A stretch of 64,000 nt of DNA from Methanoculleus sediminis (GTDB lineage: Archaea > Halobacteriota > Methanomicrobia > Methanomicrobiales > Methanoculleaceae), in the NCBI RefSeq assembly GCF_001017125.1, contig NZ_JXOJ01000002.1, positions 435,017-499,016 on the forward strand. Reading direction: 5' to 3'. How positions within the stretch are numbered: position 1 is the first letter of the stretch; every line of letters begins with the position of its first letter. The notes under the pieces were generated by a model. The model was not told the DNA's origin and ran no database searches. It worked only from the letters and a program-made list of their open reading frames with translations. A program made the position numbers and the translations under genes. Below are positions 1 to 63,740 of this stretch, one piece after another.

Positions 1-118
1 GAGCACCGTCAGGTGAGAAGTGCGATGTTCCGTCAGGAACAGAGCTCGAGCACCGTCAGGTGAGAAGTGCGATGTTCCGTCAGGAACAGAGCTCGAGCAC
101 CGCAAGGTGCGAAGCCCA
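1..118. repeat. Tandem 47-bp hairpin repeat (2 full units plus a partial third)
   Basis: Two identical 47-bp units (1-47 and 48-94) are followed by a diverged partial unit. Each unit holds two small stem-loops, CACC-GTCA-GGTG and GTTCC-GTCA-GGAAC, enclosed by GAGC/GCTC ends, so a transcript could fold as a three-way junction. The third unit has a GCAA loop instead of GTCA, so the stem is kept while the loop varies. The array lies about 100 bp beyond the polC stop codon. Related mini-hairpin clusters occur near 52.3-52.5 kb and 63.6-63.7 kb. The repeat may continue to the left of the window. Confidence 0.85.
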
Positions 119-51203: not shown

Positions 51204-52091
51204 ATGGACGTACTCGGTAACTACAAGTCCGTAATCTCGGCACGCTCGACCGACAAGGACATCACGAAGCAGTCCCAGGACGGCGGCATCATCACGACGC
51301 TCTTCGCGTACGCACTCGAAGAGGGTATCATCGACGGTGCCATCGTCGCAGGGCCGAGCGAAGAGCCCTGGAAGCCGGAGCCCGTGGTCGCGACCACGAA
51401 GGCCGAACTCCTGGCCGCTGCCGGAACGCGCTACACCATCAGCCCGAACCTCTATCTGATCAAGGAGGCGACCCGCAGCTACGGTCTCGACCGCGTCGGT
51501 ATCGTCGGCACGCCCTGCCAGATGCAGGCTGTTCGGAAGGCTCAGCTCTACCCGATCGGCATGCGCGACGTCGACGACAAGATCGCCCTCGCGCTCGGCA
51601 TCTTCTGCATGGAGAACCTCTCCTACCAGGCGCTCGAGGCAATCGTCGAGGACCACTGCAACCAGAAGATGGAGTCCGTCAAGAAGATGGACATCGGCAA
51701 GGGCAAGTTCACGGTCTACACCGAGCGCGGTGCAGTCAGCCAGATGCCCCTGAAGCTGATCCACAAGTACGTGCAGCCCGGCTGCAACGTCTGCCTGGAC
51801 TACGTCGCGAACCTCGCCGACATCTCCAGCGGCTCCGTGGGCAGCCCCGACGGCTGGAGCACGGTCTTCGTGCGGAGCATGAAGGGTAACGCGGTCTGGG
51901 ACGGCGCGATCGCCGCCGGCTGCTTCGAGACGAAGCCGATGGACCAGGTCAAGCCCGGCCTCGACCTCGTGACGAAGCTCGCCACGGAGAAGATCACGAA
52001 GAACCAGAAGAATGTGGATGCTCGTAAGACGTTCGGCCTCAAGGCGGACGGAACCCCCAAGGGTCTCCGGAACCCCTACGAGACTCCCTGA
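51204..52091 (+). CDS. frhB: Coenzyme F420-reducing hydrogenase, beta subunit (F420-binding)
   Basis: The 295-residue subunit binds FAD, an Fe-S cluster and F420. Signature parts are MDVLGNYKSVISARSTDKDI, KQSQDGGIITTLFAYALEEG, RYTISPNLYLIKE, GIVGTPCQMQAVRKA and PGCNVCLDYVANLADISSG. The ATG follows GAGGTGAG. It is the last gene of the frhADGB operon; a T-rich CTCTTTTTTTCGG lies just beyond its stop. Confidence 0.96.
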   Translation: MDVLGNYKSVISARSTDKDITKQSQDGGIITTLFAYALEEGIIDGAIVAGPSEEPWKPEPVVATTKAELLAAAGTRYTISPNLYLIKEATRSYGLDRVGIVGTPCQMQAVRKAQLYPIGMRDVDDKIALALGIFCMENLSYQALEAIVEDHCNQKMESVKKMDIGKGKFTVYTERGAVSQMPLKLIHKYVQPGCNVCLDYVANLADISSGSVGSPDGWSTVFVRSMKGNAVWDGAIAAGCFETKPMDQVKPGLDLVTKLATEKITKNQKNVDARKTFGLKADGTPKGLRNPYETP

Positions 52092-52259: not shown

Positions 52260-52500
52260 GAAATGTCCCGGTACAGTGGACCGTGGGGATATCGCCTTGG
52301 GGAACGACGCTCCGGTGAACGACTGTCCGTAGGATGCGATGGCCCGCTGGGCCGGAGCTTGAGAAACCCAAAGGGTTTCAGACAGGCGTTTGAGAAGACC
52401 GGAGGTCTTCGAGGAGTGGAGTTCGAGCACCGAAGGTGCGAGGCGCGAACGTAGTGAGCGTGAGCACCGTTAGGTGCGAGGAGGGGCTGACGGGGAGGGC
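52260..52500. repeat. Cluster of mini-hairpins downstream of frhB
   Basis: Within about 240 bp there are at least five perfect small stem-loops: GGCCC-GCT-GGGCC (52341-52353), GAAACCC-AAA-GGGTTTC (52363-52379), GAAGACC-GGA-GGTCTTC (52394-52410), GCACC-GAA-GGTGC (52427-52439) and GCACC-GTTA-GGTGC (52464-52477). Loops are three or four bases. They share GAGCACC...GGTGCGAG with the array at the start of the window. The whole 706-bp gap between convergent frhB and the AdoMet decarboxylase-like gene has no convincing gene. Confidence 0.8.
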
Positions 52501-52797
52501 GAGCTCCGGGCGTTCCGCCCATCGCACTTTGAAGACTCTCGAACACTCAAACCCCTGATAGCCGCCCGTCCTTCAATGACAATCTCCACGACCAGAAGAG
52601 GGTTTCCAACAGAGCCGATTGTTCGCCGCTATCCGGCCAGACGTCCTTACCGGAGGTAGGGGCCATCTTCTCCAAGAAAAATCGAGGGTGGGGGCCGCCC
52701 CCCGCCGCAGTCCCGGTTACGCGCACGGAGGATGGCAGCGGCTCTCTGCCGTCGTATCGTTACCGTTGAAGTGTTTTTCCGGGTATTGTGTTCGTAT

Positions 52798-53244
52798 TCA
52801 GTCCCTGAACAGTACCTGGTAGGTTACCGAATCTGCTCCAAAAAAGTCCCTGCAAAACTCCGCTGCTTTGGCGGGCTCGTATTCCTTGCAGCTGAAGATG
52901 TCGAGGTAGGCTGCGTTGGTCTCGTTCGCGAAGTGACCGGAGACGAGCGATGTCTCGATGAGCTGGGTCATGGAAAACCCTGCGACCCTCTCACAGGGGC
53001 CGAAGTGAATGATCTGCGGTTCGCCGAACCTCTTCATGTCGATGAGGTCGCACAGTTCGACGATGAACCGGTGGATCTTCTCTGCGTCCCTGATCGATGC
53101 CGGGTCGCACCCTTTCAGGTCCACGCTCGTGTACAGGCCCCAACACCCGCGCTGTTTGAACTGTGCAACGATCTCTGCGTCGCTTACGGTCTCTGCCATA
53201 ACGTTGCCTGCAGCAACGTTGTTTGCCATTACTTTACTAGCCAT
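52798..53244 (-). CDS. S-adenosylmethionine decarboxylase-like proenzyme
   Basis: The 148-residue protein, from ATG 53244 after GGTGA, resembles SpeH/SpeD: HFGPCERVAGFSMTQLIETS, LVSGHFANETNAAYLDIFSC and DFFGADSVTYQVLFRD. In known AdoMet decarboxylases the cleavage sequence is of the form ES-H-x-x-x-H; here it is TSLVSGH, keeping Ser and the later His and Cys but changing the Glu before and His after. It may be an altered pyruvoyl decarboxylase or an evolved relative with another substrate. Polyamine synthesis is likely, given pdaD elsewhere. It may start 25 codons earlier at 53319. Confidence 0.7.
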   Translation of the reverse strand: MASKVMANNVAAGNVMAETVSDAEIVAQFKQRGCWGLYTSVDLKGCDPASIRDAEKIHRFIVELCDLIDMKRFGEPQIIHFGPCERVAGFSMTQLIETSLVSGHFANETNAAYLDIFSCKEYEPAKAAEFCRDFFGADSVTYQVLFRD

Positions 53245-53328
53245 GATCTCACCTTCGAGACAAACTCTGATCGATTGATCTCTGTAGATTTTGATAGTTC
53301 TGATTTTAAACTTATCCATATTACTAAT

Positions 53329-62864: not shown

Positions 62865-63605
62865 ATGGACGAACAACGGTGGCTGATCGGTTTGGGGACG
62901 GCCCTCATCCTCCTCTCGGTCGTGCTCTACGCCCTGCATTTCCTGATCTTTCGGGACATCTTTCACATCAGCATCTACACGCTCGGCGACATCGCGTTCC
63001 TCCCGCTCGAGATCCTCCTGGTAACGGTCGTCTTTCACCAGGTGCTGGCGTCCCGCGACCGGCGGCAGAGGATGGAGAAACTGAACATGGTCATCGGGAC
63101 GTTCTTCTCGGCGATCGGGACACAGCTCCTGACTTACGTCTCCGACAACGATCCCGATCTCGACGGGGTCCGGCCGCTGCTCCTGGTCGACGACACCTGG
63201 ACCGACGAGACGTTCCGGGAAGTAGAATCGCGGCTGAAGCAGCACCCGTGCCGTGTCGGGATGGAGAAGATCGACCTCCCCGCCGTCAAGCGGTTCCTCG
63301 GGTCGCGCGAGGATTTCCTCCTGCGGCTGCTGGAGAACCCCGTACTCCTCGAGCACGAGGCGTTCACCGAACTCCTCATGGCGGTCTTTCACTTCAACGA
63401 AGAACTGCAGCGCCGGCCCGGATTCTCCGATCTGCCGGAGACCGACACGGCGCATCTCGCAAGAGACCTCGAGCGAATCTACGGCCTCCTGATCCGCGAA
63501 TGGCTGGACTACATGCGCTACCTGCAGAAGAACTACCCGTATCTCTTCTCGCTCGCGATGCGGACAAACCCCTTCGACGAGAAGGCATCGGCAGTTGTTG
63601 AGTAA
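62865..63605 (+). CDS. Membrane protein of unknown function
   Basis: The 246-residue protein has two N-terminal helices (LIGLGTALILLSVVLYALHF and IAFLPLEILLVTVVFHQVLA), then a soluble helical region of about 180 residues rich in charged residues, including DDTWTDETFREVESRLKQHP. It looks like a conserved archaeal membrane-anchored helical protein but no family is recognised. It follows the HAD gene by about 70 bp on the same strand and ends convergently with the partial gene at the window edge. Confidence 0.7.
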   Translation: MDEQRWLIGLGTALILLSVVLYALHFLIFRDIFHISIYTLGDIAFLPLEILLVTVVFHQVLASRDRRQRMEKLNMVIGTFFSAIGTQLLTYVSDNDPDLDGVRPLLLVDDTWTDETFREVESRLKQHPCRVGMEKIDLPAVKRFLGSREDFLLRLLENPVLLEHEAFTELLMAVFHFNEELQRRPGFSDLPETDTAHLARDLERIYGLLIREWLDYMRYLQKNYPYLFSLAMRTNPFDEKASAVVE

Positions 63606-63740
63606 ACGACTTCCACTTTGCGCCGTCAGGTGCGAAGGGAAAGGAGTTCGAGAAGCGGTAAGGCTTCAAATGCGACGCGTGCCCCAGAGGGGCAGGCGGA
63701 GCAGGAGCACCAGAGAGTTTCGAATCCGGGAGCTCCCCCT
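63606..63740. repeat. Mini-hairpin cluster at a convergent 3' junction
   Basis: Between two convergent stop codons lie GCGCCGTCAGGTGCG-type and TGCCCC-AGA-GGGGCA stems and a GGAGCACCAGAGAG segment, resembling the arrays at 1-118 and 52.3-52.5 kb. There is no gene here. Confidence 0.65.

Follow-up and report, generated by a model that had tools for sequence, protein, structure and literature searches.

A nest of short palindromic elements downstream of frhB in Methanoculleus sediminis, probably members of a genus-wide family that spreads as DNA

The organelle DNA of Volvox carteri contains hairpins of 11-77 nt with conserved loops of 3-5 nt, often TAAA or TTTA, and in the available part of that report these repeats sit inside other repeats in both orientations and spread in non-coding DNA (PMC2670323). 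The double-hairpin elements of Allomyces mtDNA and the repetitive hairpin-forming elements of sponges invade intergenic DNA, and according to the accessible text their numbers differ between close relatives (PMC2800124). Rickettsia palindromic elements are described, in the sections available, as inserted in protein-coding sequence with the activity of the protein retained (PMC6649704, PMC3733652). In Methanomicrobiaceae a recurrent potential G-quadruplex has been reported, whose copies are, in the accessible portion of the paper, all intergenic, about half of them tail-to-tail, and without strand preference (PMC8044849). For Methanoculleus marisnigri the part of the source at hand names two satellites, Fam_48_45_4 and Fam_102_51_3, whose repeats measure 45 and 51 nt (PMC6749651).

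Here, an array of mini-hairpins downstream of frhB in Methanoculleus sediminis is described. The array is probably made of palindromic elements, short and non-autonomous, that are nested in one another, belong to one Methanoculleus-wide family and spread as DNA. It shares with the Volvox repeats the short conserved loops, the variable stems and the occurrence of elements within elements. In contrast, the Volvox repeats reside in organelle DNA, with AT-rich mtDNA copies and another loop rule, and the available part of that study reports no unit made of two hairpins together with a tag and GA flanks (PMC2670323). The likeness is one of working and not of descent, as the present repeats reside in archaeal chromosomes, and within the order their pattern is frequent only in one genus and in one further genome from the same taxonomic family. 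The sponge and Allomyces elements are mitochondrial, and the accessible text describes neither a loop-targeted nesting series nor a GNA/GNNA plus GA signature (PMC2800124). Those of Rickettsia are, as far as the available sections go, CGTC-tagged bacterial palindromes, whereas the unit here is archaeal, has two hairpins and is mostly intergenic. Similar to REP/BIME sequences with their RAYT, which in the accessible pages of the source are short palindromes in high copy number that carry a tag on one side and in some cases lie within other palindromes (PMC3733652), the present repeats are short and numerous, but GTAG does not mark them and no Y1 transposase was found in the M. sediminis genome. 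The core of the host repeat beside the units (52480-52499) matches the published potential G-quadruplex with a CTGAC central loop; the available text describes this G-rich core and a C-rich partner and does not mention mini-hairpin units beside it (PMC8044849). The 45- and 51-nt satellites have lengths that tandem units could also show, a likeness by length alone, since no structure or nesting is described in the accessible part of that source (PMC6749651). In the open-licence PMC literature on Methanoculleus repeats or archaeal REP, as far as its texts were available, we found no description of the two-hairpin unit, of the loop and GA rule or of loop-nested growth, and the units are not described in the available parts of PMC8044849, PMC6749651, PMC3035220, PMC12306157 and PMC10969869. 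Already known from these partial texts are nested palindromes, hairpin elements, palindromes within genes, REP dimers in palindromes and the G-rich host core.

The window, i.e. the whole stretch of 64,000 nucleotides that was analysed, corresponds to C8:435017-499016 of the 2.49-Mb, 15-contig genome. Five perfect stems (at least 5 bp, loops of 3-4 nt) are located at 52341-52353, 52363-52379, 52394-52410, 52427-52439 and 52464-52477, thus within 137 bp (52341-52477), and a sixth lies at 52508-52520. Five non-overlapping hairpins per 140 bp is the highest value anywhere in the window. When the whole window was dinucleotide-shuffled 100 times, the maximum was three (64 shuffles) or four (36 shuffles), and none of 2000 shuffles of 52260-52500 exceeded three hairpins. 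At least five perfect stems in about 140 bp, as claimed in a preliminary description of this DNA, were indeed present. By a cruder density (stems of at least 6 bp per 200 bp) the locus lay within the ordinary range, and a signature was therefore used in its place: a signature hairpin has the form GA-stem-GNA/GNNA-stem-GA. The window holds six of them, whereas 100 shuffled windows averaged 0.23 and never had more than 2. All six fall within two clusters, 26-110 and 52394-52477. The stems at 52341-52353 (loop GCT) and 52363-52379 (loop AAA) fail the strict signature; their loops lack G..A, which counts against the loop rule. The preliminary description had also stated that three clusters in the window share parts. 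This holds for the window-start cluster, which carries the signature, but only in part for the one near 63.6-63.7 kb, which has the tags GGAGTTCGAG, TGCGACG and GGAGCAGGAGCACC in common and contains no intact signature hairpin.

The upstream neighbour of the array is frhB (51204-52091, plus strand, FrhB_FdhB domains) and the other neighbour is a convergent AdoMet decarboxylase gene (52798-53319, minus strand). The 63.6-kb cluster likewise lies between convergent genes, a plus-strand gene ending at 63605 and a minus-strand gene from 63741, in agreement with the convergent flanks described earlier for two of the clusters. For the cluster at the start of the window, the gene on the right (minus strand, 3' end at 214) is the only one visible. 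All gene calls are from a codon-usage caller made for this analysis and are not an annotation.

The repeating unit is about 45-49 bp long and consists of two hairpins in the fixed register NNCGA-hairpin A-(R)GAG-NNN-GA-hairpin B-GA. Its stem sequence varies freely with pairing kept, and GA stands on either side of each stem. The window array is a nest of such units, apparently inserted in the loops of older units in Russian-doll fashion. Features of the three clusters are:

1..116, plus strand: tandem 47-bp double-hairpin units, TGTTCC-GTCA-GGAACA plus a GCACC-type hairpin; hairpins at 26-41 and 73-88 (spacing 47) and at 97-110
52271..52296, plus strand: left end of a larger host repeat (GTACAGTGGACCGTGGGGATATCGCC), where units accumulate, assigned by sequence
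52302..52439, plus strand: level 0 unit; begins GAACGA; hairpin A arms CGCTCC (52308-52313) and GGAGTG (52413-52418) with one G-T pair; tag GGAGTTCGA (52418-52426); hairpin B GCACC-GAA-GGTGC (52427-52439)
52318..52412, plus strand: level 1 unit, within the level 0 loop; AACGA; hairpin A arms CTGTCC (52323-52328) and AGACAG (52380-52385) with one mismatch; decayed tag GGCGTTTGA (52385-52393); hairpin B GAAGACC-GGA-GGTCTTC (52394-52410), then GA
52335..52379, plus strand: level 2 unit, within the level 1 loop; TGCGA; hairpin A GGCCC-GCT-GGGCC (52341-52353); tag GGAGCTTGA (52354-52362); hairpin B GAAACCC-AAA-GGGTTTC (52363-52379)
52445..52479, plus strand: adjacent unit, among 62 exact copies (C8:487478); mini-hairpin A GCGA-AC-GTA-GT-GAGC (52445-52459), spacer GT, GA (52462-52463); hairpin B GCACC-GTTA-GGTGC (52464-52477), then GA
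52480..52499, plus strand: G-rich core of the host repeat, GGAGGGGCTGACGGGGAGGG
52500..52527, minus strand: partial unit in opposite orientation, GTGCGATGGGCGGAACGCCCGGAGCTCG; hairpin A GGGCG-GAA-CGCCC with flanks GTGCGA and GGAG; followed by hairpin B in other copies
63620..63735, plus strand: degenerate units GGAGTTCGAGAAGC..GCTTC and TGCGACGCGTGCCCC-AGA-GGGGCAGGCGGAGCAGGAGCACC

The outer hairpin of the nest is matched by six copies in the own-genome sample and in stretches of a relative, G052, with 3, 51, 99 or 144 nt inside. Un-nested copies with a 3-nt loop occur at C11:99340 and C11:97398 of the own genome and at G052:359895. The copy at C10:114143 of the own genome contains levels 0 and 1 only (51 nt between the outer arms), the window copy has 99 nt, and the copy at G052:1689532 has one level more than the window copy (144 nt). 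The nesting steps thus amount to 48, 48 and 45 nt, about one unit each. Nested cases (n = 23) were picked by hand, 21 of 45 candidate rows plus two from the comparison of host repeats. The other 24 rows were dropped by eye, mostly as tandem (complete hairpin first), composite, masked or repeated; at least one usable row (L108) was omitted. In these 23 cases, which are not fully independent since four share one composite, the insert measured 45-49 nt in 15, 87-94 nt in three, 132-141 nt in two, and 39, 59 or 74 nt in three, and it started 1-6 nt beyond the loop. A flanking duplication of 2-7 nt accompanied 21 of the 23 inserts and was missing from two, with duplications of at least 2 nt expected in about 7% of cases by a crude random-junction model; the reference for insert start and duplication is the inferred empty form of each nested hairpin. 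For the duplication count the empty loop was set to 3-4 nt ending in A, a chosen setting that suits the family, and allowing loops of 5 nt gave shorter duplications of 0-5 nt.

The loop and flank rules were derived from a set of loci from the genus (967 kb), in which repeats with identical 64-nt context were counted once. Hairpins flanked by GA on both sides numbered 256 with loops of 3 nt, 230 with 4 nt, 20 with 5 nt and 26 with 6 nt; TC (the other strand) aside, the next commonest identical flank pair reached 35-36. GNA was present in 189 of the 256 triloops and GNNA in 189 of the 230 tetraloops, so that G..A loops made up 378 of 486, with 40 distinct stems among the 378; as the loci were partly retrieved with a GCACC/GNNA pattern, the GCACC stem and the GNNA class are over-counted, while the N letters, other stems and triloops were unselected. 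The closing pair of the GNNA loops was C-G in 186/189, and their third position was T or C in 174/189 (25 of 34 distinct stem/loop combinations); in GNNA hairpins without GA flanks it was T or C in 32/100. The own-genome sample was concordant (G..A loops 85/116 and 99/150, third base T or C in 69/85). When the loops were tallied regardless of flanks, GNA occurred 124 times vs 42 in a Markov control and GNNA 49 vs 53: the loop signal depends on the GA flanks. The register was tested free of any pairing assumption by asking for a perfect hairpin at the exact next base after GGAG[CT]NNGA. Such a hairpin followed in 121/768 instances in the own sample and 237/1098 in the genus loci, and after scrambled tags in about 1% (11/1356 and 12/1297 in the own sample, 9/1373 and 13/1242 in the genus loci), a result that indicates a two-hairpin grammar with GGAG-NNN-GA spacing. 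In some units hairpin A has a stem of only two bases, GC-GNA-GC or AC-GNA-GT, with an example in the window at 52449-52455; the genus loci contain 40 and 21 of these, respectively. Mini-hairpins of the form AC-TTC-GT in a CGA..GA frame, which go against the GNA rule, were counted 17 times in the same loci.

GNRA loops of RNA require a purine at position 3. With T or C mostly in this position, the mini-hairpins are not RNA GNRA loops. For DNA, d(cGNNAg) is reportedly a stable tetraloop motif selected by Nakano et al. in 2002, d(GCGAAGC) is said to be an extraordinarily thermostable mini-hairpin, and the loops of stable DNA mini-hairpins generalise to GNA, with a sheared G-A pair as the structural picture. 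At the sequence level, the loop rule of stable DNA mini-hairpins d(cGNNAg)/d(GCGNAGC), closed by C-G, is mostly followed, and by their letters the unit loops resemble loops that stabilise DNA hairpins. Folding programs predicted significant structure of the three clusters both as DNA and as RNA (z -3.6 to -5.6), and the window array scored z -4.1 and -4.5 as RNA on its two strands. Since DNA and RNA both score well and both strands of the array fold (of the three clusters, the array was the one folded on both strands), these programs do not decide the chemistry; it is the loop and flank rules that suggest folding as DNA rather than as RNA.

The family is genome-wide and Methanoculleus-wide. 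GAGCACCGNNAGGTGCGA has 62 exact copies in the own genome, 32 and 30 on the two strands, compared to 0 for the reversed-pattern control. Its 15-mer version, CACCGNNAGGTGCGA, is present in 30 of the 35 genus genomes, with at least 12 copies in 23 of them and a maximum of 69; the five genus genomes that carry no copy (G064-G067 and G078) are 80-88% complete. Among the 232 genomes of the order that were searched, it was found beyond the genus in 24 of 197; the highest count there was 14, reached by a single genome from a different genus within the same family, and the others had at most two, while the reversed control hit 5 places in the 232 genomes and none within the genus. A scan of named genomes with a 20-base version yielded at least 111 stretches. 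Among those listed, 100 were labelled Methanoculleus or Euryarchaeota, Methanomicrobiales or Methanomicrobiaceae; the 11 from other organisms had a single copy each, with no GGAG-NNN tag ahead. The host repeat is represented by GTGGGGATATCGCC, with 5 exact copies in the own genome and 0 for the control. In 95 distinct host-repeat copies around the core GGGGCYGACGGGGAG, compared by eye, units are located, when present, at two exact points, and copies with and without units at these points were found. As to a possible MITE nature of this larger repeat, several copies appear by eye to have similar inverted ends; there was no clean empty site, and the window copy comprises the left end only. The core in the window has four G-runs, the first and last of them short, and a CTGAC central loop. 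A second host repeat, CTCACGCGAAG..CGCGAAG to CTTCGCG..CTTCGCGTGA, also encloses units (L003, L008 and L014, the own C1:81146, C1:507759 and C8:53188 regions).

Units have also entered a protein-coding gene. The TtuA-like gene (Pfam TtuA_LIM_N and ATP_bind_3; own copy C1:288759-289943, loci L232-L261) was assessed in 30 of the 35 genus genomes. In 8 of these it contains in-frame units, located in the linker that separates its C-terminal CxxC pairs, and in the other 22 it is empty; four of the empty genes were read separately. Three cassette types occupy one and the same boundary, which in the empty gene lies between ...GGGGAG and CC.... The insertion is also present in the single-contig genome G052 and hence does not stem from an assembly error in one genome. 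In a tree of two gene fragments from 23 genomes, read without support values, the insertion looks patchy, which proves no number of insertion events. In all, units are found in hairpin A loops of other units, at the two host-repeat points, in tandem rows and, in frame, in one protein gene.

The preliminary description had considered that the clusters may form terminators, mRNA-stabilising structures or a non-autonomous repeat family, and had placed them beyond the 3' ends of genes. A role as transcription terminators or as stabilisers of mRNA 3' ends would agree with the good folding of the array as RNA (z -4.1 and -4.5) and with the distribution of signature hairpins over intergenic gaps. The systematic own-genome sample (40 stretches and the window, 859 kb) contained 107 signature hairpins, of which 65 could be assigned to gaps bounded by two visible genes and 6 fell within called genes, some of these chance-like; the remaining 36 lacked a flanking gene because of a stretch end or a masked gap and are outside all context counts. 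Among gaps of at least 50 bp, signature hairpins occurred in 8/48 convergent, 12/237 tandem and 5/103 divergent ones (convergent vs the rest, 17/340, Fisher P 0.006), and the enrichment was stronger in the full sample, which is biased towards hits (20/61 convergent gaps). The 3'-end preference thus stands as far as convergent gaps are enriched, but not as a rule, since hairpins are present in divergent gaps and in coding sequence too. In tandem gaps of the systematic sample the hairpins lay on the same strand in 4, on the opposite strand in 4 and were mixed in 4 (7/4/9 in all samples), i.e. with no clear preference in these small numbers. The distribution published for the G-rich core follows the same trend (PMC8044849). 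Downstream of frhB, 30 genus loci were compared, among which 21 gaps were readable to the next gene (own included), 7 were open and 2 lacked an anchor. Signature hairpins were present in 10 and absent from 11 of the 21 gaps, whose length ranged from 212 to 875 bp. The strict signature overlooks diverged units: the gap in G051, one of the seven open ones, scores none, and has ten tandem 39-bp units with GAGCACCGGAGGTGG (L204:2464-2850) where the own genome has the nest. A TGAAA closely followed by a T-tract was found at 28 of 30 frhB loci by a search that itself required the T-tract, with two loci unmatched, and here this T-tract comes ahead of the array. In addition, copies lie in frame within a gene, most loops are not GNRA, and no Rfam family reaches its gathering score anywhere in the window. 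The absence of a clear strand preference together with the 11/21 empty frhB gaps makes both gene-end roles unlikely, and we regard them as highly improbable. An intrinsic terminator or structured 3' end would be fixed in orientation and conserved with its gene; the arrays, at the small strand counts and with 11/21 gaps lacking the signature, are neither, and this candidate was rejected. The preference for convergent gaps is probably due to the removal of harmful insertions and not to a role at gene ends.

What remains of the earlier alternatives is the non-autonomous repeat family, which is supported by genome- and genus-wide copies, by nested and in-gene copies and by presence or absence at orthologous sites. 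The main rival to its mobility is replication-based growth, in which no mobile unit exists and palindromes multiply by replication accidents (template switching between quasi-palindromes, tandem slippage, gene conversion), the loop and flank rules being what survives. The tandem 47-bp units of the window and the ten tandem 39-bp units after frhB in G051 fit such growth, as do the flanking duplications, which vary between 2 and 7 nt, unlike those of a standard transposase, and are missing in 2/23 cases, a finding that counts against mobile units. A search of the own genome for mobilising genes of the families Y1_Tnp (PF01797) and RVT_1 gave no match, which also favours replication accidents. 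Nevertheless, the units are located at unrelated points (a protein gene, two host-repeat points, hairpin loops), the insert sizes are mostly quantised near 46, and the fixed GGAG-NNN-GA register exceeds what slippage would keep; replication-based growth therefore has in our view a low but appreciable probability. REP-like repeats moved on single-stranded hairpins by an IS200/IS605-type (RAYT, Y1) transposase would likewise be short palindromes with a one-sided tag (here GGAG), and REP dimers within other palindromes are reported for some families in the available part of the literature (PMC3733652). The Y1_Tnp domain, absent from the own genome, was below the cut-off in 29 of the 35 genus genomes; of the six above it (G056, G062, G064, G067, G075 and G078), five had 0-1 copies of the pattern and the sixth had 30. 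Moreover, where GTAG takes the position of the tag, a hairpin follows in only 2/185 and 2/198 cases. With GGAG as tag (GTAG being the one alternative tested) and no Y1 gene in the own genome, membership in the REP/RAYT group is disfavoured, and movement by such a transposase appears quite improbable. Retrotransposition via an encoded reverse transcriptase was also rejected, as RVT_1, detected in 3 of the 35 genus genomes, is absent from the own genome.

For the reading that we prefer, a family of mobile non-autonomous palindromic elements, the following route may be envisaged. The units would spread in the form of DNA: while it is single-stranded during replication or repair, the G-loop strand may fold into mini-hairpins, with sheared G-A across the GNA/GNNA loops and GA/GA tandem mismatches at the stem bases, both of a kind expected to stabilise DNA. 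A new copy would be placed just 3' of GNA-G or GGAG, typically in such a loop, and each placement would leave a flanking repeat of 2-7 nt. Repeated rounds would then result in Russian-doll arrays. More tentatively, the family may be a selfish element conserved chiefly in three dimensions, in which a pair of ssDNA mini-hairpins, set by its sheared G-A loops (GNA/GNNA) and the tandem GA at its stem bases rather than by stem sequence, is copied into the loops of its own kind. In that possible case, which we put forward with reserve, the mover would not be a transposase recognisable as Y1/HUH, nor would it be a reverse transcriptase encoded in the genome.

Similar hairpins were encountered in AT-rich viral contigs. 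At 33 loci, chosen by eye from the 49 loci L285-L333, dispersed hairpins of the form GCGA-5bp-GNTA-5bp-GAGC are present, for instance in IMGVR_UViG_3300044644_001125 (L297, 327 kb). The viral loci (262 kb) contain 76 GA/GA tetraloop hairpins, 73 of them with GNTA loops, and no GGAG-NNN tag; 31 of the 76 have stems other than the GCACC used in the search. One viral contig weakly resembles large Pseudomonas phages at the DNA level. The viral hairpins seem to form a separate family that follows a comparable loop and GA rule. The occurrence of a like GA plus GN(T)A hairpin rule in unrelated viral contigs suggests, by analogy, that a general class of ssDNA-folded genetic elements may exist.

Small palindromic repeats are common, and what is conserved in them and by which route they spread can seldom be read from sequence. 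Here, one genome and a relative retain successive levels of insertion, which makes the unit, its target and the order of events directly readable. That copies lie in frame in the gene of an enzyme predicted to modify tRNA indicates that such elements can also supply new peptide segments to proteins.
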